DNA from: Fragilaria crotonensis
Taxonomy: Eukaryota > Bacillariophyta > Fragilariophyceae > Fragilariales > Fragilariaceae
DNA: 24,641 bases
NCBI GenBank assembly: GCA_022925895.1
Contig: JAKSYS010000797.1
Location: forward strand, 1-24,641
Reading direction: 5' to 3'
Shown here: piece after piece, positions 2,216 to 23,881 of the stretch
Layout of the letters: each line of letters opens with the position of its first letter
Numbering within the stretch: the stretch's first letter is position 1
The notes under the pieces: generated by a model
Seen by the model: only the letters and a program-made list of their open reading frames with translations
Database searches by the model: none
What the model was told of the DNA's origin: nothing
Position numbers and translations under genes: made by a program

Positions 2216-2893
2216 TGTATGAATATGATGTCAAATCCTTTTTTTTGAAGACAGCACCTCCAACACGTACAGTACAACGTCCTATAAAATGTAAAGGCGC
2301 ATTGTTAAGTACCGCAGTCATTGAGATATTCATTGTCAAAGCCAATGTAGTTAATGGCAATATTCTCTGCCGAGTTCATCACAAGGTGGGTTTTTGTGAG
2401 TTGATATACATGTAGTCATTAATGACGGTTTATGTTTACTAAAGTGGTTACTTTTAGACTTAAAAATAGTCAATAGTTATATATAGTTGGTTTTTTTCTA
2501 CATGTTATAATGATATAATACTTAAATATTTTTATTATCAAATTTTAACAGTGAATTCTTGAATTATAATCAATCTATATGGTTTGATATCAACAAAAAA
2601 AGATAAACTATAAATATATTTCTGATTGAATCAACAAAGTGATGGGTATAGCGAATTGATTTTCACTGCAGCAACCATTTTTTCAAAAATTTGACTTGGT
2701 GTTTTCTAAATTCACTGATATTGAGGCATACTCGCCAGTTAGGTTTCCGAGGCACAGTGAATGGCGTTGTCTAAAACTTTTACCGTATTTCTGGCATTTA
2801 ATGGCTGTTGTTCAACAGGTCCAGTGATCTTTTGAGTTCATTGTTGAATCTTCGACAATTCTGTGCATTGCTTCTCTCTTTACAAGGATTCAC
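2216..2893. other. gene-free leader, AT-rich
   Basis: I see no gene here. From about 2410 to 2640 the sequence is very AT-rich, unlike the flanks. The remainder up to the ATG at 2894 is probably the 5' leader and promoter of the transposase. A 13-bp word at 2377-2389 (CATCACAAGGTGG) recurs inverted at 11681-11693. Confidence 0.5.
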
Positions 2894-5800
2894 ATGCCGA
2901 AACGCACATCCTCTACTACGTTGTGTGACGGATGTCACAAACCCTTCAAGCGAATCCAGGTACACTTGAATCACAATCTTGTTTGCAACAGCATTTATGC
3001 TTCTCGGAAGAGCACAATTGATCTGTCTGCTGGTATTGGTGGTACTTTGATTAACAGGAGTGCTGCCAAGGCCGCGCAAAACCACGCTTCGTTGTCCTCA
3101 CATATCCTCACAGGACAAGTAAGTACTGGACACCAGGAGGGTCACAGTCGTCAACGATTTTCTGCACCATTCGAATTCAGTTCTGTTCAGGATGCTGGTC
3201 GTGCTGCTTCTGTTGAAGCACTAGATGGTGACGATGACCCCGATGAGCATGAATTGGACGACGACGATGACGTCAATCCTTTTGGTGAGGAAGAGTCGTT
3301 GACGACGCCACCTGATTTGGTTGAGAACGGAACGACAGACCCTGACGAAGGAGTCCTTGAATTGTACGAGGAACTCCTCCGCCTTCAGTCAAATCCATTA
3401 TCCTCGCTGGCCAAATTCTCTTGTGAAGAGAAGGTTCATATTGAGTTGCTTCAACTCCTAAAAGACTTGAAGGCGCCACTTTCTGCGTTTAAGTACATAC
3501 TGAACTGGGCCGCGAAAGCAAATGAAAATGGCCACCAATTTCAGACCAGTTGCCAGCCATCACGTGAGACGGTTACAAAGATGTTGTTCAGTCGTTATAA
3601 CATGCATGGTTTGGTTCCCAAGGAGAAGAAGTTGTATCTGCCCTATTCAAAGCGTATTGTTACGATGGTATATTTCGATGCACGCCAAGTGTTTGCGTCA
3701 TTGCTGTCATGCCGTTCCCTCAATAAGGACGAGTGTTTTATGTTTCATGAACAGGGGGATCCATTTGCTGTGCCTGATGCGAGGACATCAGTAATTGGTG
3801 ACATCAACAGTGGTCGGTGTTATCGAGAAACCTATAAGAAATTGGTGAAGAATCCGCAGTCTGACATGATACTTCCTTGTGTGCTTGCAATGGACAAGAC
3901 GCACATTGACCTTCCGGGTAGACTCCAGATGGAGCCAATCACAATTTCTCACGGGTTATTGAAGCATGAGTTTCGCCGTTTACCCATTGCAATGCGAATT
4001 TTGGGTTACATCTATCACGGGAGTGCCTCACGTAAGGCTCAGAAGGTTGACCTCAACGTTGATTACAATGAGGCACCCAATGACCTTCCTCCTGGTGTTG
4101 CGACTGTGAGCAATGTTCTAAAACCTAAAAAAGGCGTCACCTGGCCTACATACATGTTGAATGAGTATCACATGCAGATTGCATTTATTCTTTCGGCATC
4201 AGGTTTTTTAAGTTTGCAGGACAAAGGCTTCAAGTGGAAGCTTCAATACAAGAAGACTGTCCACGACGTCGTATTTCACCCCTTTGTCCCTTTCATAATT
4301 GGTGACACGGAGGGTCACGATCGTCTTTGCGGGCACTACACCGCACGATTTGCAAAAATCAAACAACTATGCCGTGCATGCGAATGTCCCACAGAGATGA
4401 CTGGTTACTCGAAATCTGTGTACCGCCACAGGAAGCCAAGTCATGTTGGAGGTTTGGTGAGAGAGGGTGATGTTGAATCCTTACGCGCACTATCACAAAA
4501 TTATGTTGTTAACGGCTTTAACAAAGTTCGGTTTGGCCAGCACAATGCGAGAGGAATTTTTGGAGCTTGTCCTGGTGAAATCCTCCACTTGATCACACTT
4601 GGGTGGTTCAAGTACTGCCTTGAATCCTTTGCACACCAAGCTGGCGCAAAGAAAGGGAAGAAATCGGCTGCGCTTGAACATTATGACGCTCTTTGCGCAG
4701 ACATTGGAAGTGCCATGGTACGGAAAAGTGACCGCGACCTACCACGTACAAATTTTCCGAAGGGTTTTCCACGGGATCTAATCTGATGGGTCATGAGATA
4801 CCAGGATGTCTCCTAGTCAAACTCTTCGCATTGCACACTAGTAGTTTCCGACAAATCTTTCCCCTCCTAAAGAGTCAAAGAACAAGGCTGCGAATGGAAA
4901 GGGATGGAAGAAGAACGAGAACGGAAAGCCTGCAGAAAGAAAGGGACAACAGAAACGGCCGTCGGCAACTGTGGAAGCAGGGAATGATGCTGCGATGCAC
5001 GATGCGAAGCAGGAGGAAGTGAAGTATGTACCACCCCCACTGCCTAAACTAGGGTGTCCCAAGCACACCGCAGATTGGATTCACATCATTTCTTGTCTGC
5101 TGCAATGGCATCAATGGATGAAGCAACCGACAATAAGGCGTAGTCATGTGATAAGGTTGGCCACTGGTGTTCGATGGCTAATCCGCAATGTTGCCAATAT
5201 TTGCCCACGGATGTCGGGAATGAGGAACAATACAATCAAGATGCACCTTGCGCTTCACATCAGTGAGGATATACTTGATCATGGTGTCCCCGACGTGGTA
5301 AACTCATCATATGCAGAATCTGCACATTCCACTTGCAAAGAATACATCTCGCAATACTCAGAAGCGTGTTGCATCCTTTACAAGACAAGCAGCACACCGG
5401 TACCATGAGGATTTGGCAATCTTGGTTGCCAATAATGATGTGGACGAGTTTGAGGCCAAGAAGCCTCCAATCCCTTTAACTTCCTCTGGTGCTGCTGGTC
5501 GTCGGTTTGTTCTATCGCAGAAACCCTCCTCAGCTGGTGATGACATCATGTTTGCGTGGAACTCTCCCGCGCGACAGATGATTCGCCTAAAAACAGGCTT
5601 CCATCTCGTATCTCCAAATTTATTATGAAATATTGTTGCCCAGATGTCCCCAGGGGTTTGGCAAAGTCTGTGCAATGCTTCACGGAGTTTATCTCTGAGG
5701 AAGGAGATCGGTACAGAGGCCATCCAAACTATCATGGGAAACGTTGGTGCGATCATGCAATGATTAATTGGAATCTTGATTTCCCCTTGCCAGGACTCAT

Positions 5801-6271
5801 TCACACCTTTGTGGACCTTCGTCATCTCCCAGATAATACTCGTATTCGCACGAAACTACAAAAGAATCTCAAACCTGGAATGTATGCGGTTTTGGAATCC
5901 TACGATGCAGAAGATGCAGATCCGGCTGTTCGAATAATATGATCGGCCTGTACACACTTCATAGGGAACCAGAAGAGGGTCGTGGCAATATGCTGGTATC
6001 TATTTACCTCATCGAGGTTGGGAGCATCTTTGCTCCCACAGTTGGGATTCCGGACTTCGGGAACAGAGACTCAGACAAGTATTTGTTCCTATTCCGAAGA
6101 AGAGAGGAATGGCCATCAGCATGGGATCATTTTGTACAGTACTGTTGCAAGAATAACGAGGAGGAAAGCTTAGAGTCTGAATACGAGGAGGAGGATGACA
6201 AAGACAACGAAGAAGTCAACGAGGACGACGAGCAGGATGATGACGACGACGATGAGCAGGAGGATGACAAT

Positions 6272-6315
<44 letters not shown>

Positions 6316-6469
6316 CAATGACAATGACAATGACAAAGAGGATGACAATGATGACAAGGACGACAAGGATGATGATGATGAGGACAATGACGACGATGAC
6401 AACAACTCGGATGATAACGATGATGACAACGAGAACGAGGATGATAACGACGATGACGACAACGAGTGA
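2894..6469 (+). pseudogene. CACTA/Plavaka (tnp2)-like DDE transposase, frameshifted
   Basis: The gene reads from the ATG at 2894 through five frame changes, near 4780, 4860, 5325, 5589-5593 (an A5 run) and 5937, to TGA at 6467-6469. It would encode about 1,180 residues. The N-terminus has a C-x2-C...H...C zinc-finger-like motif (C11, C14, H24, C31). An acidic linker follows (residues 110-135). The transposase core has LAMDKTHID (D334), IIGDTEGHDRLCGHY (D471), a CRACECP zinc knuckle (493-499) and EILHLITLGWFK. Further on come GHEIPG (about 4789) and an SSYAESAH stretch with the likely catalytic Glu near 5310-5328, then an AKNTSRNTQKR segment. This order, D...D...CxxC...lLH...E..H, is the one known in tnp2/Plavaka transposases. 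The tail is almost entirely Asp/Glu/Asn. The first frame alone is open for 630 codons, so decay is recent or some shifts are assembly errors. The exact superfamily branch is an inference. Confidence 0.75.
6196..6469 (+). repeat. GAY/AAY trinucleotide tract encoding acidic tail
   Basis: This is a degenerate GAT/GAC/GAG/AAC microsatellite with a nearly pure GATGAC hexanucleotide core at about 6264-6315. In the transposase frame it gives an Asp/Glu/Asn tail ending in a stop at 6467-6469. The opposite strand gives a poly-Ser open frame that is only its shadow. Confidence 0.8.
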
Positions 6470-6611
6470 ATACTCAACAAGTACAATGGTAGGTTACATA
6501 CGGCAAGCTAAATTCTAAACTTTAGTACTCCTTTCTTCTCCTTTTCTTTTCTTCCATTGTTGTGAAGGTGCACCAACGCCTACTAATTCCATCCCCAGAT
6601 TGAGCTCATCA
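6470..6611. other. short convergent intergenic spacer
   Basis: The transposase and the minus-strand dioxygenase gene converge on this 142-bp spacer. It carries a pyrimidine-rich run (CTTTCTTCTCCTTTTCTTTT, about 6531-6550), and both 3' ends must lie within or near it. Such tight convergence suggests that the two genes travelled together. Confidence 0.5.
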
Positions 6612-8620
6612 TCAAAAGGTGTGGTCACTCCTCCAATCGTATATCATCCTTGCACGTCGTGGACGATGATACGATGGCAGCACATGCATTGACCCTGCCC
6701 GCCCGAACAACCTTCTCTTTGCATGCCGTGAACGTTCCGTAAAGGTGATTGTCAAACCTTGACCGCCACCCGAAAAAACTTCGGCGTTGTCCTCGCCGTC
6801 GGGTTTGGAAACCGAAGTGCAGTGCCGAAGCACTCGCCCATCCCAGCTGATGGCAACTCCGTGATAGAGGCGCACAGCCAACCCAGAGAAAGGTTTGCCA
6901 TCTGCTCGTGTGCCAAACACATTTGGCATTATGAAGTACCAATTAGAGGCTTTGCCGGGCATCTCTTCCGTCCACACAGCAAAGCCCTGCGAACAATCAT
7001 TGACATCAAAGTGTGAAGAGTTGCCGAGGTTGACACTCATGTCAATAGTGCGCCCAACCCAATCCCCATCCTTTCCGTCCATAGGAGACATCATCGGAAC
7101 ACCAGAGTCGCTTTCCAAAGTCTTGATCAAGTGCATCAAGTCAGGGTAACACAGACGGCCAAGGCAACAAAGAGCAGCAACCATGTCTCGCAGGACAAGT
7201 TCGTCAACCTTTTCGTTTGCAGCGTAAGGAATCATGGTAGCCCCATCTCCCTCCACACGCATGCCAATGGCGTACATGTTACCAACATCACCCCCCGTAT
7301 TCCTGACCCCACTAGTTGTTCGCATGCCCCGGCGAATTGCAGTGTTACACCGCGTGATCTTCAAAAGCAAAGACGCACGGCGGGCTATTCTCAATTTCAA
7401 GTCGTCCATCGGCACAGGATCTGTTTTCAGCATGAGGGTATGCCTCACCCTCACCACAGTTTGCCGATCCACCGAGGTCCCACACGGTGCATCATCAATC
7501 ACGACGTCTACCATCGGATCAACCACGGGATCCAACACCAAGCATGAAGATGGAAGGTCAAAGTAACGTGTACCCGAAGCGTAGTGCCGACCGCCGAGTC
7601 GGGCAGACTTAGATCCCGCAAGAATAGAGTTGAATTCCAGTGCCAGTACCTCCCGTGGCCATGCCAAGGAGAAATTCTGTCCTGAGATAACATCTGGGGG
7701 CAACATGGGGCCGTCTTGATCAGCGCACTGATTGGCACGAATGATCACACGTTTGTCGCAAAGAATATTGTACGTCATGCGCCACACCGAAACTGGAAGG
7801 CCATCAGAACCGCCACCACAATGAAGTCGCTTAACATAACCGCCATCACCAATGGTGTACATAGGAACACGACGTTGTTGAGAGTCCAAAACTTCACTGC
7901 GATGTAGGCGAAGCCAACTCATGTCGTGAGGAACAAGCGTCTTTTCAACACCTGCGTCAGCACGTCGTCGATCACATGAGCAGTAGAAGACACCAGCATT
8001 GGGGATGAAAGCTATCAACGCACGGAACTGATAGTCCACAGAGTCATCAAGATCATCCGGTTTGAAGCATCTCATCACCCGAACATCATTGCCATTGTTA
8101 ATCTCGCTTGTAGTGGGAACAATTGCACGATTCAGCACAACATCCATGAAAAACACTTCACAGACAGATTCCCCAGGGGAGATGCTTCACATGCGACTCG
8201 TGGAACATATCTGATAGCTTATTGATGCGATAGAAGTCGCAGATGCGATATCCCACAGAATCCAAGGCCGCTCGAAAGAATGAGACAGGAGTGCCGCAGA
8301 TATCGTCATCAACGCCGCCAATTGGAGGAAGAGGAGGATTCAGCACGGCATCTCTGAAGGCTGTCGCAACCCGCTCGCGATAATCCTCCTGATCAAAAAA
8401 ACAGTACCTGCATCAACAGTGAAAGTACACGCTCCTTTGACGGAAGGAATCCTTCAGCAGTCCGATCTAAAGGCAGAGAACTGCCAGCAATGTCATGGCC
8501 TGCAGCACCAACCCCAACCGCACGCGGATTGCGTCCCATGGCTGAAACAGAGCTCTGCGCCGGAAGCGTACGCCGCGCGCTAGCTATCCTGGCGCGATCT
8601 CGTGAAGGATCTGCAAACAT
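6612..8620 (-). pseudogene. candidate 2-oxoglutarate/Fe(II) dioxygenase (TET/JBP-like?), frameshifted
   Basis: The gene reads leftward from the ATG at 8620 in three frames: 8620-8393, about 8400-8158, and about 8200-6612. The first shift coincides with a seven-T run (8395-8401 on the plus strand) and the second is near 8160-8180. The large last frame (514 codons, no ATG at its 5' end) has SSHFDVND, NWYFIMPN, then YHGVAISWDGRVLRH. In that frame H382 and D384 fit the HxD iron motif, H432 the distal iron ligand, and R441 or R444 the 2-oxoglutarate-binding basic residue. This HxD...H-x8-R order is diagnostic of double-stranded beta-helix dioxygenases. Its placement beside a transposase recalls fungal TET/JBP enzymes encoded in KDZ transposons, which oxidise 5-methylcytosine. 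Substrate and subfamily cannot be settled here. The N-terminal about 350 residues are unrecognised. Alternatives are introns rather than frameshifts, or a structural non-enzyme relative. Confidence 0.55.
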
Positions 8621-8631
8621 GATGATACCGA

Positions 8632-8858
8632 CGATAAGGCGGCAACGCGATCACTAACGACAAGTTGTTCACCCCTGTCTGGGGAAACAACCAATCCTGA
8701 GTTCGCACGCGCCAGAAAAACAAGCAATTCCCCTCTTCACGTTGAGTGATAAGGCAGCACGTCGTCACAAAGGACAGATTTGCAAATCCCTGTCTGGGGA
8801 GAAGGCAATTGTACCAGAGTTCCAACACGCCAGAAAAGCAAGCAGTTCCCCTCTTCAG
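8632..8858. repeat. imperfect tandem duplication upstream of the dioxygenase gene
   Basis: Copy 1 is 8632-8739 and copy 2 is 8747-8858. Both run GATAAGGC.GC, then CCTGTCTGGGGA, then CACGC..CAGAAAA.CAAGCA, then TTCCCCTCTTCA. They lie directly 5' of the ATG at 8620 on the minus strand and so would sit in its promoter or leader. One minus-strand frame is open across both copies, but I see no recognisable protein. Confidence 0.75.
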
Positions 8859-9709
8859 ACGACAACAAGCATGAATGTGGTATACCTCACGTATGTGCTG
8901 GGCACAAAGAGTGCAACAGCAGTGTGGATGTCCATAAATTGTTGTGAAAGCAACTCGTGCAAAATAGTGCATTTCACGTCGATTCCAGTATAACCAATAC
9001 TACGTGCAAGGCACGCGTTATGTGGGACTTCAGGCCAAAATTTCCTTCCCTCAAAACTGTCTAAGTACAAAAACAAATAAACATGTGTTAGTCATTTATT
9101 TTTCATCTTCTTCATTTTGCCATGGCAACAAGACCCTAACTAACGTAGCCATAGATGTGCTAAATCCTTATGTATTCAGGCACACATTCTTGTCACATAC
9201 AGAAATTCCAAGTCGAATGCATCACCAGCCAGCCAGTACTTAAGATGATAACGGTAATTTACCTTAGTACTGAGAACTGACGCATCGCAGCACCTAAAAA
9301 AACTCGCAGCACTTAGTAACAAATCATATATACCAAGCACATGCGCATCTTCATCGTACCGAGTGAGTGTACATGATACGCAAACATCGGAGTATTCCAC
9401 GAAGTAATCGTGGCGGTTACAAAAACGATTAGCGGCAAAATATTGCCATATAAACGTATACACATCATGATATATTGCAGGAATATAACTAGTAAGCCTT
9501 CAATCCCCGACACAGCAATATTTATTTACAACGGTAGCTTGCCACAAACAATTGTACAGTGCCTTTAGTAATAATTTCTGTCGACACACCCATTCAAATT
9601 GACTCTGTGTCAAGCATACAAACAACATGTGTGCCCAACTCTTCAAATTTAAATGGGAGTTGTGAACAAAAGTGCTTCGCGCTCAAAACTTTTCTTGTGT
9701 GCATAAGCG
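8859..9709. other. intergenic region, no supported gene
   Basis: Only short open frames occur. The longest (minus, about 9463-9176, 95 codons) shows no known motif. A small direct repeat, TCGCAGCAC followed by C/T-TA, occurs at about 9285 and 9305. The region separates the minus-strand dioxygenase gene from the plus-strand gene at 9710 and could hold a divergent promoter. Confidence 0.4.
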
Positions 9710-11071
9710 ATGAAACTTGTTCCCACAATTGTATACTTCTACAACAGAGTAACTGAAGCCATGAACAACGGAACTGTATCTGACAAATCAGACTCCGAAT
9801 CTTTATATGAGGATGAAGACAGCGGCAGTGGCGAAGACGAAATTGCCGAATCGTCAAAAGGAGGAAAGCGGCAAAGAGAACATATCGAAGAAGAGACCAT
9901 GACAACGAGGAGGCTACGGCACGGTCTAGTAGCCCGGACCACACATATAACACAAGTGACGGAGAAGAAAATAGTGACCAAGAACGAGAGTGGGATAGGG
10001 AGTTGACAAAATGCTTCCCTGCCGGGGTGCCGAGGAATTACATTCGTCCGATGATGACGATGATGATGACGACTATGTTGTTCCTGCAAAACGTGGAAGA
10101 ACATCGTCAGCAGGAGCTGCGCAGAATTTGGAGGGGTTGATACGAGTAAGAGGTATGTCAGCAAAAGAATCGTCCATGTCGGAAAAACACCAGGAGAACA
10201 TTGCAGATAGGGTCACAACTTACGTCAGAAAACATATGTTTCGAGTCGTCAAGTTTATCAGCAATGAACACATGTTTGGTAAGGCTTTCAAGGAGGTGAT
10301 GGACCACGAGTGTGTGGCAAACCGAGATCGTGTGAAATTCCAGATGTTATATGAAAGTGTTTTTAACCATGCGTTGAACAGCAAGAGGAGCACATGCGAG
10401 CAGGCGGGAAGAACATCATGATGAGAGAACTAAAACAATTCAAGGAAGATAGAATGGATGTGTTCTCAATTGATGAATTACAAAAAATGAGGAGAGCAAG
10501 TACGGAAAGGAGAAAAAGCATTCCTCTGGTTCTATGGAACATTTCTTGAGTGCGTTTGTGGCCTGAAGCACTGGGGTGTACAAAAGAGTAAGCAATTGGT
10601 GTCGCAGGCGACGAGCTCGGCCACAAAACACGGCAAGTTGGTGACCATCAGCGACGAGGCTTTCGCTCTCCTTCTCTACGACAACTATATTGAGAAGTGG
10701 CTCAAGGCATTTCAGCGAGAGGAACAACTGCGGCACGAGACCCCACCAGCAGAACCACAACCAAGGAGCGGCGCCGGCGGCAGGGAAAGTCCAAGAGGGA
10801 AAGGGAGAAAGGCAAGTATACTGCGCAAAAAACAGGCCACTGCAAGTATGGTGGATGGAGCCGCGAAGGAATGGCAAGGTACAACGAATTCTATCACTTG
10901 GTGAAGGCTGATCGCACGTGTGAACAAGCCATGGATATGGAGCGTGAACTGCTCAATCACTGCATTGCACTGAAAAGGAGAGGAACAAATGGTGAAGGAA
11001 GTCGAGACACCTCCGATGGAGAGCAGGCAGAAGCATTAGAACCAGTGGAAGCATGTTGGGATTTGGAATAA
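9710..11071 (+). pseudogene. acidic transposon-associated protein of unknown function, frameshifted
   Basis: A coherent protein of about 450 residues can be followed through shifts near 9895, 10040, 10400, 10513-10517 (an A5 run) and 10770 to TAA at 11069-11071. The start may be the ATG at 9710 or the ATG at 9761 (MNNGTVSD). The first third is very acidic and Ser-rich and includes an eight-Asp run, followed by the basic stretch PAKRGR. The middle is helical (VRKHMFRVVKFISNEHMF, then LWFYGTFLECVCGLKHWG). A Lys/Arg-rich segment follows, then GKYTAQKTGHCKYGGWSREG. The tail is again acidic. I do not recognise a named domain. The acidic/basic layout and the HCKYGGWS motif resemble repetitive hypothetical proteins of algal genomes, which is a recollection and not a search result. 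It may be an accessory gene of the adjacent transposon. Confidence 0.5.
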
Positions 11072-11656
11072 CAACGCAATTTATTGAGGTGCACAATTAT
11101 TATGATCATCACCATAACATTCTGAAACGAAACCGCAACGAGTGATTACTCCACTTTTGAATGTGGAGATGTCGACATGCAGCGTCATTGTTAAACATAG
11201 AAACTTAAACTATACACATATTGTTGTCAAGCAATCAATATTTCAAGCTAGTAAGCAACGTTTAACAACGACTCTGCACAATTTAAAGAATTTCATTTCA
11301 TCAGATAAAGTTATAGCATTTATCTTTTATTGTTATAAATGACTATAATATGGTGACAGATACCCATTAAATTGATTTATTCAATTTACATTGTGATTCA
11401 AATTTACTGCATAACGTTGCTTAAAACCAAAAAAAGCCATGTAAACCAATTTAAAAGTTTAAAACACAAAGCAAATTGTAATTGCAATCGACAAATCTTG
11501 TTTTATTTAGGACACCCCTGTTTTGATGTTTGTTGAGTATTTGCTTAAGGACGGTGTAGTATGATTTTAAACTGTGAAATATAACTTTAAAATGTTAGTG
11601 CTAAATATTTTATAATCATTAATCCCCGTCCACTAACCATATGTATTGAATCCATT
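11072..11656. other. AT-rich gene-free region with a hAT-like end
   Basis: The sequence is strongly AT-rich with no supported coding region; a 66-codon frame at 11142-11342 looks like chance. At 11502-11520 the sequence ends TAGGACACCCCTG, identical over 13 bp to the right end of the hAT element at 2165-2177. Confidence 0.5.
11502..11520 (-). repeat. orphan hAT terminus
   Basis: On the minus strand this reads CAGGGGTGTCCTA, the same 13 bases as the right end of the element at 385-2177, in the same orientation as that right end. No matching left end is visible nearby, so it is probably a solo or truncated end. Confidence 0.5.
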
Positions 11657-12493
11657 TTATTTTTTAAAAGTCACCATATACCACCTTGTGATGTTGTCAA
11701 GGTAGGTAAGCAAAAGCTTGTCATAGTATGTGGGCTTGTTTGCAAACGTCTTCTTCCTTGCGTCGACGAGTTCCCGAATGGTAGGACAGGAACCCATGTT
11801 GTTGACAATGTCTACTCGGTTCCTCTCATCAAGCCAAATGTTGATGGCTCAATAGTATGTTCCATCGATCGTAACTGAAGATGGCACGGTGGTCTTGTTA
11901 CATGTTTTTGGCTTCTTGCTGGATGGTGACGGCTCAACTGCCAACATGAGGTTCTTTCCCCGCCTCTTCTTCTTTGTCGTCTCATTTGCCAACAATGAAG
12001 CGGCAGCTTTATCCGTGGTTGACCGCGTCACTGGGGATGATGCAGCTGGCATTTTGGAATCATCTTCACTGGAATCGGAATAGAGCTGAGAATTATCAGC
12101 ATCAACATGCAGCAGTCTAGTATCTTGTAGTGGTGACTCGTCCTCAACATTTTCATCATCATACTGGTCCCTCTCCACAAATTCGTTCTTTTTTTGTTCC
12201 CAAAGCAAGCTCACCATTTCATCATGCCTCCTGTTCTTGTACCCTGACATCTTGAATTTGGAACACAGCGCACGTAGATGTTTCATGTTCCATGATTCTA
12301 AAGGCTTTGAATCAATTGATTCAATGCTCTCACAATCCGCAGAAAGCACGATGCTGTCCAGAGTAACAATTCTTGTCCACTCATTGAATGCCGCATCGGC
12401 ATTCTTCTTTTTCTCGGCCTTTTTCTTCTCCAGCAACATCATGTGATGCTGCTTTGCAGCAGTGATCTCCGACTCTTGCTGGGCACCATCCAT
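11657..12493 (-). pseudogene. SAP-like coiled-coil protein with in-frame TGA
   Basis: The gene starts at the ATG at 12493 (MDGAQQ). A TTG at 12514 is open upstream but is not a credible eukaryotic start. The frame stops at TGA 11849-11851, after 214 codons. The same frame then continues open for a further 63 codons of protein-like sequence (AINIWLDERNRV onward, ending TRWYMVTFKK) to TAA at 11657-11659. This suggests one base change to a stop, or readthrough. The features are a Lys/Glu-rich coiled coil (residues about 20-32), then a helix-extended-helix stretch MKHLRALCSKFKMSGYKNRR (about 70-90) that resembles a SAP DNA-binding motif, then an acidic Ser-rich linker and a basic KKKRRGK cluster fitting a nuclear signal. 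The function is unknown. It may be a transposon accessory gene or a host gene. Confidence 0.5.
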
Positions 12494-12965
12494 GCTGATC
12501 ACTACAAGCCACAACCTACCGGTAGTTATGACGACTAGTACTATGCATTACGAACGTCGTTGGGAGCAGTAGAATGTGATGGAGCGGACCGTACAAGAGC
12601 GAACACATTTAAAATGTTTTTGGATGATTATCCACATGGACATATAAAAGTATAAAGAGTTGAGGGGAATTTCATACGACATTATACATGTGGTAGGATG
12701 CTCGAGGTGCGTCCACCCCTGTTTGCAAACAGGGGTCGAGGCACCTAATGCCCCTACCATTTTCCGGGTTTTTTCTCACATTTCACGTCCTGTTAGCAAC
12801 AAATGACCAATTGTCCCAAAATAGTGCTGAGGATGAGGTAGGACAATGGAATTGTATGTTTGAAAATGGTATTATACCACCCAGTTTTGGAATTGTATTT
12901 TAAATTGTATTTTACATAGCTCACTACAAACAATCCTAGGGTGTCAAAAACATTTCTGATATACC
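12494..12965. other. intergenic region with a long hairpin
   Basis: No coding region is supported. The sequence carries the palindrome at 12691-12759 and the left copy of a flanking repeat (12919-12941). A TATAAAAGTATAAA tract at 12643-12656 could be a TATA element for the minus-strand gene, although it is 150 bp upstream of the ATG. Confidence 0.4.
12691..12759. repeat. imperfect long palindrome with perfect 20-bp core
   Basis: The core at 12716-12735 is CCCCTGTTTGCAAACAGGGG, a perfect palindrome. Outer arms pair AGGTGC with GCACCT and TGGTAGG with CCTACCA, with short mismatched stretches between them. It can be read as two CAGGGG-type hAT ends facing outward from an 8-bp centre (TTTGCAAA), or simply as a hairpin. 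Confidence 0.75.
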
Positions 12966-14958
12966 TTTTACAATCTTACCGCCTTATCGGCTGTGGCCTC
13001 TTCTGACGCCATGACCTTCAAGATTGTTTTCGCGCCGGATCGATATATTCCTGTCACAGATCGGCGTCAAAATTCCCCTATCCATCTATCCGTCGACCAA
13101 ATTCGTGTGATCAACTCAATCCTCTCCGAAAGTCCACCGGACGGGAAACCAGTGATCGAAGATAACCCGACGCTCATCATACGTTCACTGAACACCACGA
13201 GCCACGGAACCCACGAAGAACAGGCCATTGGAAATTTCACTCGGCGCAAACTCATTCGTCTTTCGAACTGGAGTGAATGGCAACAGAGCGAAGTCAAGCA
13301 GCTTGACTCTATGCAGAAACAAGACATGTATGGTGAACCATGTCTCCCTCCGCCAGACGCCATCATCCTTCGTCAACATTGGAATTACTCGATCAAGGCC
13401 GACGGAACTCGTAAAGCAAGGAATTGCTGTGATGGCTCACCCCGCGCAGCTCCGCAATTGAAATTGGCAAACACATATTCGTCATGTATTGAGCAACCTT
13501 GTATGCGTTTGTTCTTCGCATTATGTGCTCATGAAGGATTCATCAGCCTTAAGGTGGATGCGACCAATGCATACGCAAACTCTCCCCCATCGGAGCAGCC
13601 AACTTTTGTATTCATCGACGACCAATACGCGGAGTGGTATTTTGCTCGTTTCGGTATCCAGGTCCCTCGCGATATGGTTCTCCCCGTCCAACATGCCTTA
13701 CAAGGACATCCCGAATCAGGAGCCCTATGGGAAAAGTTTGTGAATAGCGTCATTGCTCGACATGGTTTCAAATCCACCGTTCATGAACGTAGCCTCTACC
13801 AAGGAACATACAAAGGACATCGTATGCTCATTTGCCGTCAAGTTGATGATTTGCCTTAGCCATTGGATGCAAAGATCCCGAGGCCATACGCGATCTTGTT
13901 CGCACCATCTGCAAGGAGGATGGTATTGATCTCCGCGATGATGGAATTCTCAATTCTTTTAATGGCGTTGATGTTGAACAAGCAGATCGCTACATCAAAA
14001 TATCCTGCGAGACATACATCGAAAAGCTGCTCACACATTATGGATGGTCCGCTCCTGGAAATCATGAAACAGATGTCAAACCCATCAAACCTCTGGCATC
14101 ATCAACACTGCAACAGATGTTTGAGGACTATGAAACGTCTCCGCATGACGGTACACCCGAACACGCTGCCTTGGAACGCTCTGCAGGGTTCTCCTATCGA
14201 AGCGTCCTTGGTGCCCTGATTTATGCCTACGTGGTCGCACGTCCTGACATTGGTTACGCCATGACCACCCTTGCTCGTTTCTCAAGCCGGCCCTCTAAAG
14301 TCCATTATGACGCCCTTCGACGTGTTGCACGATATCTTCGGATAACTAAGACATGGGGCCTCTACTATTGGCGTCGTGCTCCTCTGACCATACTTCCGGC
14401 TGGTGTTTTCCAACCTCTGTCTTCCGATCCGTCTCTCCCTTCTTTCCCCGAGCCATCGCAGCCTACTCTTCTCGCCGGATACGTTGACGCCGCTCACGCC
14501 ACTGACCTTATTACTCGTCGTTCCATCACGGGTATCGCTTTCATGCTCGGTGGTGGACCAATCGCGTACAAGTCAAAAATTCAATCTACGGTCTCCACCA
14601 GTTCCACCGAAGCCGAATTCCTCGCTGCCATGCGGCCAAAATCGCCAAGTATCTCCGATCCATTCTCGACGAACTTGGTTATGTTCAACATGAGCCTACT
14701 CGCCTTTATGAAGATAACGCAGCCGCGATTCTGATGATCAATGCCAGCCGACCGACACCACGTTCCCGTCACATTGACATTCAGCATTTTGCGATTCAAG
14801 AGTGGAAAGCAAATCGTGAGATTGTTCTTGAGCACATTCCGGGGATCATAAATCCGGCAGATTCACTAACCAAATCCCTCGGTACCACACTCCATCATCG
14901 ACACGTTCGCCGTTTGATGGGACACTACGGCGCCCCCTCCAGTCACCACTCCTCTTAG
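12966..14958 (+). pseudogene. Ty1/copia (CoDi-like) reverse transcriptase-RNase H, 5'-truncated
   Basis: Coding similarity begins about 12966 without a start codon, with an alanine- and serine-rich stretch before the ATG at 13011. The reverse transcriptase fingers and palm include LKVDATNAYANSPP (first Asp), LPVQHALQGHPESGALW and CRQVDD, the diatom-like variant of the YVDD box. A one-base loss at 13853-13854 shifts the frame right after VDD, in the catalytic palm. The frame then runs on through VLGALIYAYVVARPDIGYAM and the RNase H domain (YVDAAHATD, STSSTEAEFLA). A second one-base shift occurs near 14632, before LYEDNAAAILM. The stop is TAG at 14956-14958. Gag, protease and integrase are absent upstream, so only the last third of the polyprotein remains. 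It cannot move by itself. Confidence 0.85.
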
Positions 14959-16717: not shown

Positions 16718-18002
16718 ATGTCATTGATGGACTCCTCCGAACAGCAAAGGTTCCGTCAAAATATTGCTTCGCTCATCGATTCCGCACCAAACCTGTCAAT
16801 CAGGGGTCGTCGTCATCTGCTGCGATGCCTGGAGAGATGCCTAAAGGGAGGTGATGTGAATTACCCTGTTTATGCTGACAGGACACTTCTGTCCTTGGCA
16901 TGCCGCTTTGGAGCTTTGAACATTGCCTGCGAGTTGTTGAGACACAAGGAGGTCAATGAATGCCACAGACTTCGATGGCCGCACTCCACTCGCCTCCGCT
17001 TGCGCGCTGGGACATCTGGACATTGTCTACGAATTGTTGAAATGCAAGGAGTTGGATGTAAACATCAGGGATGACAACGGCCTAACACCATTGATATGGG
17101 CATGCACCAGGGGACACTTGGATATCGTTCGCGAATTATTGAAACGCATGGACGTCGATGTCAATGTCCAAGATAATGAAGGGCGCACTCCACTCATTCA
17201 CTCATGTTGCACTGGATCACCGCACATTGTTTGCGAATTGTTGAAACACAAGCAAGTGGATTTGCATTTGCGCGATTCTAAATCCCGCGCCCCACTCGCC
17301 TACGCATGCGCCAGCGGAAGTTTGGAAACTGTCTGCTATTTGTTAAAACACAAAGAGGTGGATGTAAATGCCCAATGTAAGGATGGCTGCACTCCACTCA
17401 TAGTGGCCAGCTTCACGGGAAATGTGGACATTGCTCGTGAATTGTTGAAGCACAAGAAGGTGGATGTCAATATCAGGGATAACGCTGGCTCGACACCACT
17501 CTTGATGGCATGCGGCCGTGGCCATTTGAACATTGTCTGCGAGCTATTGAATCACACGGAGGTGGATATGTTCATGCGAAATAGTAAAGGTCGCACACCA
17601 CTAAGGATCGCATGGTCGCATGGCCATATGGACGTTGTTGGGCATATGCTGAAGCTCCTGGGCATGGATGTCAATGTCCATGCAGAGGATCGATGGGAAA
17701 GTGTTCTCGAGTTGTTGAAGTATGAGAAGGCGAATGTGAATGCACAAGGTGCTCTTGGTAACACAGCCCTTATCTGGGCGACCCTTAGCGGCCGGTTGGA
17801 TGTAGTTTGTGAGCTTTTGGATGACGTCAGGGTGGATGTGAGTATTCGGAATAAAGCAGGATCGACGGCGTTGGACATTGCTCGCAAATGCGATTTGTTA
17901 GAAATCGCACGCTGTCTCGAGGAACATGCCAATGCTTCTCGGCGTCGCGAGTCAGGAGCATATATCCTTCGAACAGCAGATGACAGACAAATTTCGGATT
18001 AG
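16718..18002 (+). pseudogene. ankyrin-repeat protein A, frameshifted, tail lost
   Basis: The start at 16718 (MSLMDSSEQQ) is chosen over the ATG at 16646 because the two paralogues begin with the same AGCACAATG context and (L/M)DSSEQ motif. A net +1/-2 shift at about 16951-16959 sits in the usual DVNA linker after repeat 1. Thereafter the frame is open to TAG at 18000-18002. About 11 ankyrin repeats of 34 residues can be followed (TPLxxAxxxGHLDIVxELLKHKEVDVN). Repeat 9 lacks about 13 residues in frame near 17686, compared with gene C. The conserved last module (GNTALIWAT, then NKAGSTALDIARKC) is present. The basic RERKRRR tail of B and C is missing: a deletion of about 45 bp joins the coding end to the former 3' flank. 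Ankyrin repeats bind proteins; the partner is unknown. An intron could in principle hide the shift, but no room for one is visible. Confidence 0.75.
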
Positions 18003-18456
18003 CCCATGGGGTGGCGGGCAAGTGGTTAGGATATTTATATGGTTAGGGATTTTCGTTGTTAGATATGTCTAGTGTATTGCCATGTTTCTGACCGCAATAA
18101 TAAGTCAACGACGTTGATTTGATTCGTCTCATTGTACATTTTCCTCACACTTTTTGAAGGCTTTAAAATATCTACGCTTGTATATGTTTGGCACCTTGGA
18201 TTACAATCACTCCATGTATATATCGCGAAGTTGTTACGTAAACGTGCCCCTCGAAGACAATTCACACAACTCGACACACTTCTATTTTTCAAGAATGGGG
18301 ATCGGATAGTGCCAGTAGCCCAGTGCTCGATGCGCAATCCCACAGGAACACAACACGCGCAACACACACATACTGCGGTGTTCTTGATAGTCGCCACAAC
18401 ATCCCTCCTTTGCTGTCCTATAATTGAGTGTGCGACCCAAAAGATTCAATAGCACA
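18003..18456. other. spacer between ankyrin genes A and B
   Basis: No gene is seen. The first about 20 bp after the stop of gene A still resemble the 3' flanks of genes B and C (GATGACAGA...TTTC). CTATAATT at 18418-18425 lies about 35 bp from the ATG of gene B and is a weak TATA-like candidate. Confidence 0.4.
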
Positions 18457-20349
18457 ATGTCGTCGTTGGATTCTTCAGAACAAGAAACATGGTTCTGGAA
18501 CAAGATCAATTCGCTCGTACATGCACCCGGCTATCCATACCATGATCGTCGTGAACACCTGCAAATTCTACAGGAGGCTGATGTGAAGCAATGGGATCCA
18601 CGTGACCGTAGTAGTTGGACATGTCTTTATATTGCAAGCGGACTTGGGGACTTGGAAATGGTTCGCGAGTTGTTACAACACAAGGACGTGATCAAGGCGG
18701 TGAATGGCAGCAGCAGTGGACACGGTAGCACAGCACTAATGATGGCATGCATGTATGACCATCTGCCAATTGTTTGCGAGTTGTTGAAGCAAAAGGAGAT
18801 TGATTTGAATATCAGAGATGTAAGAGGTCGCACAGCGCTCATCACTGCATGCATGCGCGGACATTTGGGGATTGTTTGCGAGTTGTTGAAGCGCAGAGAG
18901 GTGGATGTGAATGCCCAATGCACAAGAGGCCTAACAGCACTCTTCACTGCAGCCGACCTTGGATATTTGGAAATTGCTCGTAAGTTGTTGAAGCGCGAAG
19001 AGGTGGCTGTGAACGCCCAAGATGAGCATGGTCGAACAGCACTCAAGGCTGCAAGTGGTTATGGACATGTGGGAATCGTTTGCGAGTTATTGAAACACAA
19101 GGAGTTGGATGTGAATATCGGAGATACACGCAATATAACAGCACTCACTAGTGCAATCATTTCTGGCCATGTTGGGATTGTTCGCGAGTTGTTACAACAC
19201 AAGAAGTTGGATGTGAATGTCTAAGATATTAATGGTCGTACGCCACTCATCATTGCATGTAACAATGGTGATTTGGATATTGTTCGCGAGTTGTTGCAGC
19301 GCAAGGAAGTGAATGTGAATGCCCAAAACAAATATGCCGACACACCACTCGGCCTTGCAAGCAGCGATGGACATATGGCTATTGTTTGCGCGTTGTTGGA
19401 GCACAAGTCGAAAAAGTTGAAAATGAATATCAGAAATATGGACGGCCGCACGCCACTATGCTGGCATGTGTCAGAGGACGTCTGCCAATCGTTCACACGT
19501 TGTTGCAGCACCATGAGGTGGATGCGAACGCCCAAGATAAGGATGGCAAAACACCACTCCTCTATGCATGCTCGGAGAATAGGTATGGCATTGTTCGCAT
19601 GCTGTTGCTGCGCAAAGAGGTGAATGTGAATGCCCAAGATAAAAATGGCTACACACCACTCATCAGTGCAAGTGAAGATGGCTTTTTGGGAATTGTTCGC
19701 GCGCTGTTGAAACACAAGGCGGTGGATACGAATGCCCGCGACAATCGCGGCCACACATCACTCGCCATTGCAAGCAACACCAAAGAATTGGGACATTGTT
19801 TGCGAGTTGCTGAAACAAAAGGAAGTGGATGTGAATGCCCAAGATAACCAAGGCTGCACACCACTTATCCTTGCATGCTCCATGGAACATTGGCCGAGTG
19901 AATTGGATCGTAATTTATCTATTGTTTCCAAATTGTTGCAACGCGAGGGGGTGGATGTAAATCGAAGAGACGAAAAAGGTCGCACAGCCTTATACGTAGC
20001 GATTGCAGATGGTCGAAGGGAAGTTGTTCTAGAGTTGGTGAAACACGGCGAGTTGGATGTGAATGTTAGAGGTGCTCATGGCAACACAGCCCTTATCTGG
20101 GCAACCCTTAGGGGCCGGTTGGATGTGGTTTGTGGGCTTTTGGATGACGACAGAGTGGATGTGAGTGTTCGGAATAAAGCAGGATCGACAGCTTTGGACA
20201 TTGCTCGCAAATGTAACTTGTTTGAAATTGCTCGCCGTCTCGAGGAACATTCCAAAGTTGGTCAGCGTCGTGAGTGGGAAGCAAAGGCGCTTCGGCAAGA
20301 TGTGGAATTGCACAACAGGGAAAGAAAGCGGCGGCGTTTATCAGTCTGA
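18457..20349 (+). pseudogene. ankyrin-repeat protein B, nonsense and frameshifts
   Basis: The start is the ATG at 18457 (MSSLDSSEQE), in the family context AGCACAATG. The frame is interrupted by TAA at 19222-19224, where every other repeat has an alanine- or valine-glutamine step (CAA to TAA). It continues in the same frame, shifts near 19452, shifts again near 19785-19795, and ends at TGA 20347-20349. About 16 ankyrin repeats of 34 residues are visible, against 11 in A and C, so B has gained repeats or the others lost them. The final module and the basic tail NRERKRRR (a possible nuclear signal) are retained. If translated as is, only the first 255 residues (about five and a half repeats) would be made. 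Confidence 0.8.
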
Positions 20350-20686
20350 TGACAGATCAATTTCCGAGCATGGCGGTAGATGGTGGACAAAGCGGAAAAG
20401 TGATATGCCATCTTCATTCACGTAGAGTCCTTCGACTCGCATCGGATGCCAGTATTCCCGAATCAGTGATGAGCGATGGCTGGATTTGTCGTCACGCACG
20501 ATGGGCAGGAGCAACGAGATGGTACAAGGATGGCCATCCGTTTCTTTTGAAAGTCACAACAAACGTAAACAAATAGATGTATGGGCAACGAGCGCACTAG
20601 TTCCATTTACGTGCACGTTCAATATTGTAATCATTATTGTTGATTGTATTTTATTCCGAGTTAGGGATTTGTATGCTTGGCTCACA
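20350..20686. other. 3' flank of ankyrin gene B
   Basis: No gene is seen. The first about 50 bp (tandem TGATGA stops, then a GGTGGACA block) match the 3' flank of gene C, so the duplicated segment includes untranslated sequence. Confidence 0.4.
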
Positions 20687-22020
20687 CTACCGGAATGCTT
20701 TTCGAAAGTCATCGACCGTTTGGCGCATCTGACTCAAATCGTTGGTCACCTTGGAGGCTGCGTCGGTCCTGCGTTGCCAAATTTCTTGTATGCGTTTCGA
20801 GACCAAATGTTCCGATGTGACTCCAGCCATGGCACCGCAGAGTGCAATCTGCGGGTCGAGCCCAATTTGTTCCGACATGACGGCCTGTTCGTTTGCAGTT
20901 GGATCCCTTGAGATTCATCATGGTCTGTAGGTCGAGCGCCGATCCGCCGGGCCATTGGAATCGGAACACGTCAACTCGCATTGTGTTTGGTGTACCAACA
21001 AATCTTGAACAACGTTTCGATGCGTTGAAAGTGCTTGGTGACCATTTTGGGTGCACATTTCGGGACCAATAGACGTGGCCGCGCGCCCACCGAGTTGGCG
21101 CGTTGCGTTGTGTGGGCATTCACTTCGAAGACTCGCAGCTTCAAGATTGCCGTCTTGAGATAATAGGCGTCCAGCAAGAGTTGCTGGGTTGCCATCTCGC
21201 CAACCCGTTTTGGGCGAATAATAGTAGAAAGGTAAACTGAGGAACAGGTTGTAGCAAATTTGTCACAAAATTTCGAAAAGAAGGTTGAGAAACAAGTCCT
21301 CGGACGGTGGCAAAGAAAGGAACACAGTCCCTTGAGTCATTCCCACGTACGACGGCTTCTCGCCAACCATGTCGAACGTAACCCAGTTGATATCAGTTAT
21401 GGTTTTGAGAACGTCTTGGAGGCGATGCATGAGACCTGAAACAAGCACATTCATGCATTTTGCAGTAACGTCGCGGAAACGCAATTTGCTGAGCCGACAT
21501 ATCGATACAACCCTTGAATGCCCGTTCAATTGTATAAAGAATCAAGTCTTCCAGTGCTTCGACAGTTTCAGCGCAGGACTCACACGTTCGAATAACTTGG
21601 CAAGCCGTGACTTGACGCCCTTGGGTATCGCAATTGTGGCGCCCTCGGTGAACTGCTGCCCTTGTTGCTTTCTAAAAGAGGAACCGATGTTGATACCACC
21701 CACAACCGTGTTTTGGGAAGTCGACCCTGCCTGAGGCAGTTGACCCCCAAGTACTTGAGCGTATTTGTTCAGAGAATCCTGAAAGGCTGCAAATAGCAGA
21801 AAGAATGCCTGTCCCTTGGTCATGGCAGTCCATCGCGTAAGATCCCTTGATGTTAACGAACAATCCAGTCGACATCGTGAAGACAGGCAACTCACCCCAC
21901 GGGTATCAGCAGCGCCATCTCCGAGAGATTCAACAGTTGCTCGACCCTACATTGTCCTTCCAAAAGCACTGCACGGATCCTTGTGAGCAGTGTAGATTGG
22001 TGAGCCTCACTCATATAACA
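20687..22020 (-). pseudogene. VPS53: VPS53 C-terminal fragment, multiply frameshifted
   Basis: Reading leftward, successive frames give segments in the order found in VPS53, the GARP/EARP tethering subunit that docks endosome-derived vesicles at the trans-Golgi. These are a TKGQAFFLLFAAFQDSLNKYA segment (about 21810-21750), CAETVEALEDLI (about 21585-21545), VLKTITDINWVTFDMVGEKP with SYVGMTQG (21410-21330), KFCDKFA followed by RVGEMATQQLLLDAYYLKTA (21270-21150), LDLQTMMNLKG (about 20930) and EQIGLDPQ to a stop at 20687. At least five frame changes and an in-frame TGA rule out function. The N-terminal half is absent: above about 22020 the sequence turns into GTAC-rich intergenic DNA. A GTGAGT at about 21901-21896 (minus strand) could be an old splice donor, so this may be a partial genomic duplication rather than a retrocopy. 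The family call comes from recognised motif order, not a search. Confidence 0.7.
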
Positions 22021-22513
22021 GGGATCATGCTCCGAGAGTATCCGTGTATAATGTAGTGGTGTCCAAAAGTACTGGAGTACTCCGATACTGAGTAGTGCTA
22101 TGCCGTACAAAAGTCGTCAAAGTCCTACAGTCCTACGGTTATAATGTCCTGAATTCACTTCCTTCTATTGGCACGCCAATCGAAACTTGTATGTACTACT
22201 ATTAGCTAGTAGAGTAGTACCAGATACAAGATACCGGATGTATCGCAGATCGCACGTACAATTACTGGTACAAGTACTGGTATGCATACCTCCTTGGATT
22301 AAGCTGCGTAGTTGAATCATACACTGTAGAACAGTACAGGTACAGTACGACGAACTAAGTCCAAGAAATATCTCCAGATTTGATGTTCGTTGTTCGTAAT
22401 CTCCTCATCTGACATCTTACTTCTGTCACTAGTACAAATTGTTGTTGTTGTAGGACCAGGGCCGCGGTCCACTAGATGAGCTTTAGTTTCTTCACCGTGC
22501 TCGCTTTAGCACA
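22021..22513. other. GTAC-rich intergenic region upstream of ankyrin gene C
   Basis: No gene is seen. The stretch is full of overlapping GTAC/TACTGG/CAGTAC words, like 1-380 and 16100-16140, and probably contains the promoter of gene C. No clear TATA box is near the ATG. Confidence 0.5.
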
Positions 22514-23881
22514 ATGCCGACATTGTTGGATTCCTCCGAACAGCAAAGGTTCCGGAATAATATAAATTCTCTCCTCAATGCCACACCCGACCTGTCAATG
22601 GAGGTTCGCTGCCGTCTGGAGCTATGCCTATACACTGACCTGAATCGCCAGGATCGTGTCGGTAGAACATCTCTCTCCTACGCATGTCGCCACGGCCATT
22701 TGGAAATCGCGTTGGAGTTGTTGAGACACAAGGACGTCAATGTCAACATCAACGACCGTAATCGCCGCACACCACTCATGTTTGCATGTTCCAATCGACA
22801 TCGGGACAGCATGGGTGGTAATTTAGGTATTGTTCGCGAATTGTTGAAACACCAAGTCGTCCTTGAGAATGTGAATGCCCAAGATATGTATGGACGCTCA
22901 CCTCTCCTTGATGCATGCTCCGAGGGAAATTTGGACATTGTTGTCGAATTATTGAAACACAATGGGGTGGATGTGAATGTACGAGGGTTGCATGGCTTCT
23001 CACCACTCATCAAAGCATCCATGGTTGGTAATCTGGAAATTGTTTGCGAGTTATTGAATTACAAGGATATGGAGGTGGATGTGAATGCCCAAGATGCTAT
23101 AAGCCGTACACCACTCATTATTGCGTGTTCAGATCGCAATTTGGGGATTGTTTCCAAATTGCTGGATCACGACAAGATTGATGTGAATATCAGAAACAGT
23201 GGAGGGTGCACAGCACTCATCATTGCAACCGTCCATGCTCAATTGGGTATTGTTCGCGCATTGCTGAAATGCACGGGGACTAAAGTGAATGCCCGAGATA
23301 GTGATGGCCGCACACCGCTCATCATTGCAAGCTATTCAGGCTGCTTTGGAATCGTTTGCGAGTTATTGAAGCATAAGGAGTTGGATGTGAATATGCCAGA
23401 TAGTGCAGGCAGTACACCACTCATCATCGCATGCACCCAGGGAAACTGGGACATTGTTCGCGCCTTGTTTAAAAACAAGGATGTTGATGTGAATGTCAGA
23501 GACAGCAAAGGCCAAACAGCGTTATACTGGGCCTGTGGACAGGATCGATGGGATGTTATTCTCGATTTGTTGAATCACAGCAACTTGCATGTGAATGTTC
23601 AAGGTGCTCACGGCAACACAGTCCTCATCTGGGCCTGCCTCAGGGGCCGGTTGGACGTTGTTCACGAGTTTCTGAAAGACGGACGGGTAGACTTGAGTGT
23701 AAGGAATAAAGCAGGATCGACAGCTCTGGACATTGCTCGCAAATGTGAGTTGTTTGATATCGTACGTTGTCTTGAGGAACATTCCAAGGCTTCTCGGCGA
23801 CGCGAGTTGGAAGCAACGAACCTTCGACATGATATCGATTTGAACAGCAGGGAAAGAAAGCGGCGTCGTTCATCAAAATGA
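22514..23881 (+). CDS. ankyrin-repeat protein C, intact (455 aa)
   Basis: This is an uninterrupted frame from the ATG at 22514 (MPTLLDSSEQQRFRNN) to TGA 23879-23881, followed by a second TGA. The start has the family context AGCACAATG. Residues 1-45 form a family-specific helical N-terminus. About 11 ankyrin repeats of 34 residues follow (residues about 48-415), with consensus D..GRTPLIIA...GNLGIVxELLKHKxVDVNAx; repeats 2 and 4 carry short insertions. The C-terminal cap (NKAGSTALDIARKC) is followed by a charged helix and NSRERKRRRSSK, a likely nuclear signal. No membrane segment, signal peptide or enzymatic domain is visible. Ankyrin stacks mediate protein binding, and the target is unknown. 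It is the only undamaged member of the local three-gene family and probably the functional one. Confidence 0.9.
   Translation: MPTLLDSSEQQRFRNNINSLLNATPDLSMEVRCRLELCLYTDLNRQDRVGRTSLSYACRHGHLEIALELLRHKDVNVNINDRNRRTPLMFACSNRHRDSMGGNLGIVRELLKHQVVLENVNAQDMYGRSPLLDACSEGNLDIVVELLKHNGVDVNVRGLHGFSPLIKASMVGNLEIVCELLNYKDMEVDVNAQDAISRTPLIIACSDRNLGIVSKLLDHDKIDVNIRNSGGCTALIIATVHAQLGIVRALLKCTGTKVNARDSDGRTPLIIASYSGCFGIVCELLKHKELDVNMPDSAGSTPLIIACTQGNWDIVRALFKNKDVDVNVRDSKGQTALYWACGQDRWDVILDLLNHSNLHVNVQGAHGNTVLIWACLRGRLDVVHEFLKDGRVDLSVRNKAGSTALDIARKCELFDIVRCLEEHSKASRRRELEATNLRHDIDLNSRERKRRRSSK

Follow-up and report, generated by a model that had tools for sequence, protein, structure and literature searches.

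Fungal transposons of 11 lineages, PlavakaB included, bear genes of the TET/JBP family of oxygenases (Kojima 2025, PMC12730594). That report also describes basidiomycete KDZ transposons that bear TET/JBP genes (after Iyer et al. 2014) and, in rust fungi, a TET/JBP gene that moves between elements. It groups Plavaka with EnSpm and gives fungal PlavakaB elements 5'-CATCA..TGATG-3' ends with target-site duplications of 2–3 bp, and Zisupton a duplication of 8 bp (PMC12730594). Among algae, potentially active EnSpm-Plavaka transposons are described in the green alga Auxenochlorella (PMC12633428), where the likeness to the present case is that of Plavaka-type transposons in an alga, the word dioxygenase being absent from the main text; brown-alga transposons include giant KDZ and EnSpm elements, in a report with neither dioxygenase nor Plavaka among the words of its main text (PMC12477816). 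Here we analyze a 24,641-bp stretch of DNA from the diatom Fragilaria crotonensis (hereafter the window, contig C777 within the 62.1-Mb genome searched), which contains a complete PlavakaB-like DNA transposon with three genes: a Plavaka-type transposase, a convergent oxygenase-like gene, and a third conserved gene, open reading frame 3 (ORF3).

The diatom element is like the fungal TET-bearing PlavakaB elements in its Plavaka-type transposase, CATCA..TGATG ends, 2-bp duplication, and internal oxygenase-like gene. The enzyme differs: theirs is a PE-type TET/JBP protein with an HxE motif, whereas the diatom protein has HxD and no detectable similarity to TET/JBP. The diatom element also has a third conserved gene, and its oxygenase-like gene has diverged with its transposase instead of passing from element to element as in rust fungi (PMC12730594). 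With the KDZ transposons bearing TET/JBP genes, so far as these are covered in the same source, it has in common that a transposon carries a multicopy oxygenase or oxygenase-like family; it differs in transposase superfamily and in target duplication (8 bp for Zisupton vs. 2 bp here). KDZ membership was therefore excluded on the basis of the 2-bp duplication and the Plavaka transposase. A first-pass annotation of the window had proposed that an algal transposon outside the KDZ lineage may carry such a gene, and the Plavaka match, the complete element, and the diatom host all bear this out for an oxygenase-like gene. The pairing is less novel than that annotation supposed, since fungal Plavaka elements with TET/JBP genes had already been published (PMC12730594). 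A literature search, mostly without subscription papers, listed no algal transposon for which an oxygenase has been described and, as far as searched, a three-gene PlavakaB-type element with an oxygenase-like gene is new in diatoms. We take the best explanation of the whole locus to be a complete, recently moved PlavakaB-like transposon whose second gene would encode an Fe(II) oxygenase with an anti-silencing role, an explanation that, with all its parts taken together, we consider evenly balanced.

Structure and copies of the element

The element is a complete PlavakaB-like cut-and-paste transposon (Table 1). A repeat search paired its arms at 2377–2402 and 11668–11693. Both ends were inspected in four copies of the window family (the window, C279, C571, and C108), all of which have CATCA..TGATG termini and a 2-bp target duplication (TT, TT, GA, and AT, respectively). 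These copies are 9,316–9,333 bp long with 99.2–99.7% pairwise identity over aligned bases, and the element has moved recently in its diatom host. The termini, the target duplication, and ORF3 are additions to what the first-pass annotation had recognized.

Table 1. Features of the PlavakaB-like element in the window (positions count from the first base of the window).
Feature	Position	Strand	Remarks
Complete PlavakaB-like DNA transposon	2377–11693	.	9,317 bp; three further copies with identical ends at other sites
Left terminal inverted repeat CATCACAAGGTGG	2377–2389	+	13 bp; repeat search and copy comparison
Right terminal inverted repeat CCACCTTGTGATG	11681–11693	-	13 bp; repeat search and copy comparison
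Left target-site duplication TT	2375–2376	.	Flanks of four copies compared
Right target-site duplication TT	11694–11695	.	Flanks of four copies compared
Plavaka-type transposase gene, frame broken	2894–6469	+	PF18759, E 2.8e-7; stop-to-stop frames 2828–4786, 4845–5408, 5544–5942, 5837–6469
Asp/Glu-rich repeat tract, 3' end of transposase gene	6161–6469	+	Length differs among otherwise near-identical copies; 34/292 sites variable (four copies)
Oxygenase-like gene, frame broken	6612–8620	-	Longest frame 6612–8186 (524 codons); at least 105 merged loci
HxD motif (H392, D394)	7005–7013	-	Invariant in 24/24 aligned loci
H442, distal ligand of the first-pass annotation	6861–6863	-	Tyr in C109, Asn in C341
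R451, R454, H455 (H455, candidate distal ligand)	6822–6836	-	Invariant in 24/24 aligned loci
ORF3, third conserved gene, frame broken	9666–11071	+	Open over 469 codons in C279; at least 77 merged loci

The transposase, initially classified as Tnp2/Plavaka-like, indeed matches the Plavaka family of Pfam (PF18759) above its cut-off (30.5 vs. 26.3 bits), and a CRAC (C-x2-C) motif can be read in its translation. The placement of the first two genes was likewise confirmed, with start codons at 2894 (+) and 8620 (-) and a gap of 142 bp (6470–6611) between the stop-to-stop frames. ORF3 has no Pfam match above cut-off. On two other contigs, C22 and C40, the match to the transposase is split into segments ~7 kb apart, as though a second element had inserted into the gene.

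Among the four copies, variable sites were few in the transposase outside the acidic tract (7 of 3,259), the oxygenase-like gene (2 of 1,995), ORF3 (5 of 1,274), and the spacer between the first two genes (1 of 142), and more frequent in the three longer non-coding stretches (10 of 513, 10 of 1,148, and 22 of 613). Because so few sites vary in the coding parts relative to the non-coding stretches, we conclude that the coding parts were conserved among recent source elements. The transposase gene contained 18 indel blocks, seven of which fell within the acidic tract, and the oxygenase-like gene contained 10; of these 28 blocks, 15 were one base long. With substitutions few and indels many, the broken frames stem largely from small indels, some of which may be assembly errors. 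The similar decay that had been noted for the two genes is thus mostly a matter of indels.

Arrangement and age of the three-gene set

The gene order is fixed, with the transposase on the + strand, the oxygenase-like gene on the - strand, and ORF3 on the + strand. After merging, the genome contains at least 105 oxygenase-like, 115 Plavaka, and 77 ORF3 loci. These counts are lower bounds, as scoring took in the best 82 of 456 and best 56 of 413 candidates for the oxygenase-like gene, the best 68 of 505 for the transposase (window query), the best 91 of 396 for ORF3, and 92 of 92 in a further search; they may also contain haplotype duplicates, since near-identical loci (e.g., C124 and C466) may be alleles. 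Sixty-four of the Plavaka loci came from the window query and 51 from the Pfam model alone. The silicon transporter family PF03842 is matched 19 times in the same genome (18 above cut-off) and light-harvesting proteins 61 times, which marks the host as a diatom.

A neighboring gene was scored as a partner, together with its orientation, when it lay within 6 kb of an oxygenase-like locus. A convergent transposase was found at 31 of the 105 oxygenase-like loci listed, against ~0.7 expected at random placement, which places the convergent pair well beyond chance; two further transposases were in tandem and none divergent. ORF3 was divergent to the oxygenase-like gene at 39 of the 105 (0.46 expected) and convergent at three, of which two (C22 and C40) adjoin a further oxygenase-like locus and are probably nested or adjacent elements. 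All three genes stand in the same arrangement at 24 of the 105 listed loci, and 46 have at least one partner. Eight loci initially counted as unpaired were inspected, and at five of them the side where a transposase would be expected does resemble one, weakly so in two cases (22–23% identity). Viewed from the transposase side, an oxygenase-like gene lies within 6 kb of 30 of the 64 window-query loci vs. 3 of the 51 loci found by the Pfam model alone, and because of this last figure we regard the other Plavaka loci of the genome as mostly without the oxygenase-like gene.

The same cassette recurs in distant relatives of the window element. Ten diverged loci were fetched, and ends were sought on both sides in five of them (C529, C30, C341, C109, and C134). 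Paired CATCAGAAGG-type ends, with 0–1 mismatches in 13, enclose the cassette in four of these five families, the left end alone being found at C341, and a matching 2-bp duplication is present in three of the four families with both ends (C109 fails). The pair is thus conserved between common terminal inverted repeats, also in view of the 24 listed loci with all three genes. The oxygenase-like proteins of the diverged families are ~36–51% identical to that of the window over aligned positions. Across 15 loci, some of them near-duplicates, pairwise distances of the transposase and the oxygenase-like protein are strongly correlated (Mantel r 0.92, with 0 of 9,999 permutations as high), and in three distant pairs the ratio of nonsynonymous to synonymous substitution rates (dN/dS) is 0.16–0.21 for the oxygenase-like gene and 0.17–0.18 for the transposase, values that are rough given a synonymous divergence (dS) above 1. 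Judged from these sequence comparisons, the transposase and the oxygenase-like gene have diverged together.

Identity of the oxygenase-like protein

Conservation within the oxygenase-like family was assessed in 24 distinct loci, 15 in one alignment (A1) and 15 anchored, with six in both. Alignment A1 was obtained from 17 rows by dropping L004, whose frame breaks off after HxD and before H455, and L013 (a near-duplicate of L012), and it is also without L015 and L024, which have split frames. Residues are numbered from the 524-codon frame, such that H392, D394, and H442 correspond to H382, D384, and H432 of the first-pass annotation. This frame contains SSHFDVND and YHGVAISWDGRVLRH, and conservation is densest at residues 382–458. 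The motif is HxD, instead of the HxE of PE-type enzymes, in all 24 aligned loci.

The distal metal ligand originally proposed, H442, varies among the aligned loci, whereas H455 does not (Table 1). In the Naegleria Tet-like enzyme, the His of GDVLFFKGNEYKH is presumably a metal ligand. The spacing of G443, G450, and H455 (0, 7, 12) equals that of G, G, and His in this segment, which was verified in PDB entry 4lt5. Because H455 is invariant and has the Naegleria-like Gly/Gly/His spacing, it is the better candidate, and we replace H442 by H455 in the predicted metal site. Beyond H455, past a loop of variable length, lies a G[ST]F-x3-K motif, the Lys of which is present in 23 of the 24 loci whose frame extends that far, the exception being C285; in three copies (window, C279, and C773) the frame is lost ahead of the motif. 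Many such oxygenases hold 2-oxoglutarate by a Lys or Arg on the last strand. Eight hydrophobic stretches around the conserved residues could be read by eye as beta strands. From this pattern of residues we consider it somewhat probable that the middle gene encodes an oxygenase, and the second gene is probably enzymatic.

Several results weigh against this reading. The window protein has no Pfam match at an expectation value (E) ≤1, and the 15 A1 family members gave weak matches to unrelated families in Pfam, NCBIfam, and PHROGs (best E 0.014). No oxygenase was recognized in the PDB, whether the query was the window protein, the family profile, or the consensus, or when the consensus was compared with Pfam. 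A profile of the motif region gives the Naegleria Tet segment no score, and against a Tet_JBP-like probe it reached 0.1 bits, a score equaled by 27 of 399 scored shuffles. The aligned loci contain no invariant Arg ~10 residues past the distal His (Naegleria H-x9-R). Single-sequence AlphaFold models were unusable, with predicted local distance difference test (pLDDT) scores of 29.5 for the window protein and 34.7 for a 189-residue fragment. At the level of the element, 59 of the 105 listed oxygenase-like loci lack both partners, counting those that lie within 6 kb in the typical orientation. The close pair C110/C773 has dN/dS of 0.70 for the oxygenase-like gene and 0.52 for the transposase. Base composition gives no sign of elements escaping mutation driven by 5-methylcytosine, as the CpG observed/expected ratio is 0.78–0.93 in the element and ten related loci and 0.84–1.06 in four light-harvesting loci; because these ranges overlap, the ratio neither supports nor excludes a role in silencing.

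Further searches were made elsewhere. No relatives were found in viral contigs, where pattern matches are no relatives either (best E 0.008), in prokaryote genomes, or in phages (tblastn). A second, fungal-type probe gave a score reached by 70 of 1,645 scored shuffles. HMMER set H455 against the distal His of this probe, an agreement to which we give no weight since the probe yielded nothing relevant in Pfam or the PDB. Ulp1-like cysteine proteases are often transposon-borne; this identity was rejected, as the 15 A1 sequences have no invariant Cys and some copies have Ala or Gly directly after H455.

A possible alternative, to which we give about one part in three of our belief, is that the middle protein, rather than being an oxygenase, serves as a second transposition subunit, or as a DNA- or metal-binding accessory of the transposase, with an unrecognized fold. 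It would account for the lack of a sequence or profile match to any oxygenase family and for the conservation found far upstream of HxD (D51, W91, and R200 H201 Y202), and a transposition subunit would likewise diverge in parallel with the transposase; what it fits poorly is the content of residues 382–458, where HxD and a later invariant His stand at a jelly-roll-like spacing and are followed by a conserved Lys. One reading of the protein as an oxygenase is an unrecognized Fe(II) oxygenase family outside TET/JBP, with H455 as ligand and Lys for the usual Arg, which would have belonged to a diatom PlavakaB clade for long enough that its families fell to <40% identity, and would erase silencing marks from its own element. 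We put this forward tentatively, as a proposal rather more doubtful than probable. Less likely still is an oxygenase of JmjC-, prolyl-hydroxylase-, or AlkB-like type, with histone lysines, other proteins, or RNA as its substrate in place of DNA bases. All these oxygenase groups share the metal motif, and Tet_JBP (PF12851) matches nothing at E ≤1, be it in the genome or among the 15 family members, both of which suit such a substrate, but the same 15 members also lack a Pfam match to the JmjC, prolyl-hydroxylase, and AlkB families. That the genes are chance neighbors carried along in one recent burst is very improbable: the window family is young, with its near-identical copies, but the same arrangement occurs inside paired ends in families far more diverged, which diverge in parallel, and the number of convergent loci contradicts chance pairing.

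Proposed mechanism and relation to silencing

In the mechanism that we propose for an oxygenase, the transposase would act at the CATCA ends, and the second protein would bind iron through H392, D394, and H455 in a jelly-roll (double-stranded beta-helix) core, as its motifs suggest, with the conserved Lys perhaps replacing the Arg that usually holds 2-oxoglutarate. By analogy, the protein would oxidize a silencing methyl mark, either the 5-methylcytosine of DNA or a methyl group carried by histone or RNA, and removal of the mark would keep the promoter or ends of the element active; ORF3 may bind the element's DNA. Both the removal of methyl marks and the DNA binding of ORF3 are proposed because of analogous fungal and plant elements. 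Provided that the protein is an oxygenase, we consider an anti-silencing role somewhat probable.

The plant analog is the EnSpm/CACTA element Spm of maize, which encodes TnpA, a DNA-binding accessory protein that counters the methylation of its own element and is not known to have an oxygenase motif. The diatom element resembles EnSpm/CACTA elements with TnpA in its related transposase clade and in having a second gene, and differs from them in that TnpA is without a known oxygenase motif. As for DNA methylation in diatoms, one report restricts 5-methylcytosine in Phaeodactylum to transposable elements (PMC12344493). In the Fragilaria genome, the C5 DNA methyltransferase family has 15 matches, counted as rows and not as genes.

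If the second protein is an oxygenase, transposon-borne erasers would not be confined to fungi and would be found in diatoms within the same PlavakaB type, which would offer a photosynthetic group, available as laboratory strains, in which to test an eraser-vs.-silencing role, as well as a candidate new oxygenase family. Even if it is not, the analysis defines a three-gene transposon family by its ends and target duplications, with a second gene that occurs at more than 100 loci.

Surroundings of the element in the window

Upstream of the transposon, the segment 385–2177 has the ends CAGGGGCGTCC...GGACACCCCTG and 8-bp flanks CATACACG and CATATACG, alike at 7 of 8 positions, and resembles a non-autonomous hAT-type element beside the transposon. 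On the other side, an imperfect palindrome with two 22-bp arms, AGGTGCGTCCACCCCTGTTTGC and GCAAACAGGGGTCGAGGCACCT, occupies 12705–12746. It is followed at 12960–14958 by a fragment of a Copia-type polyprotein, of which the frame 12960–13859 matches RVT_2 (E 1e-7) and two frames onward to 14958 resemble a Copia-type continuation without a Pfam match. Clustered ankyrin-repeat frames, with direct repeat units of 102 bp, extend over 16941–23881.

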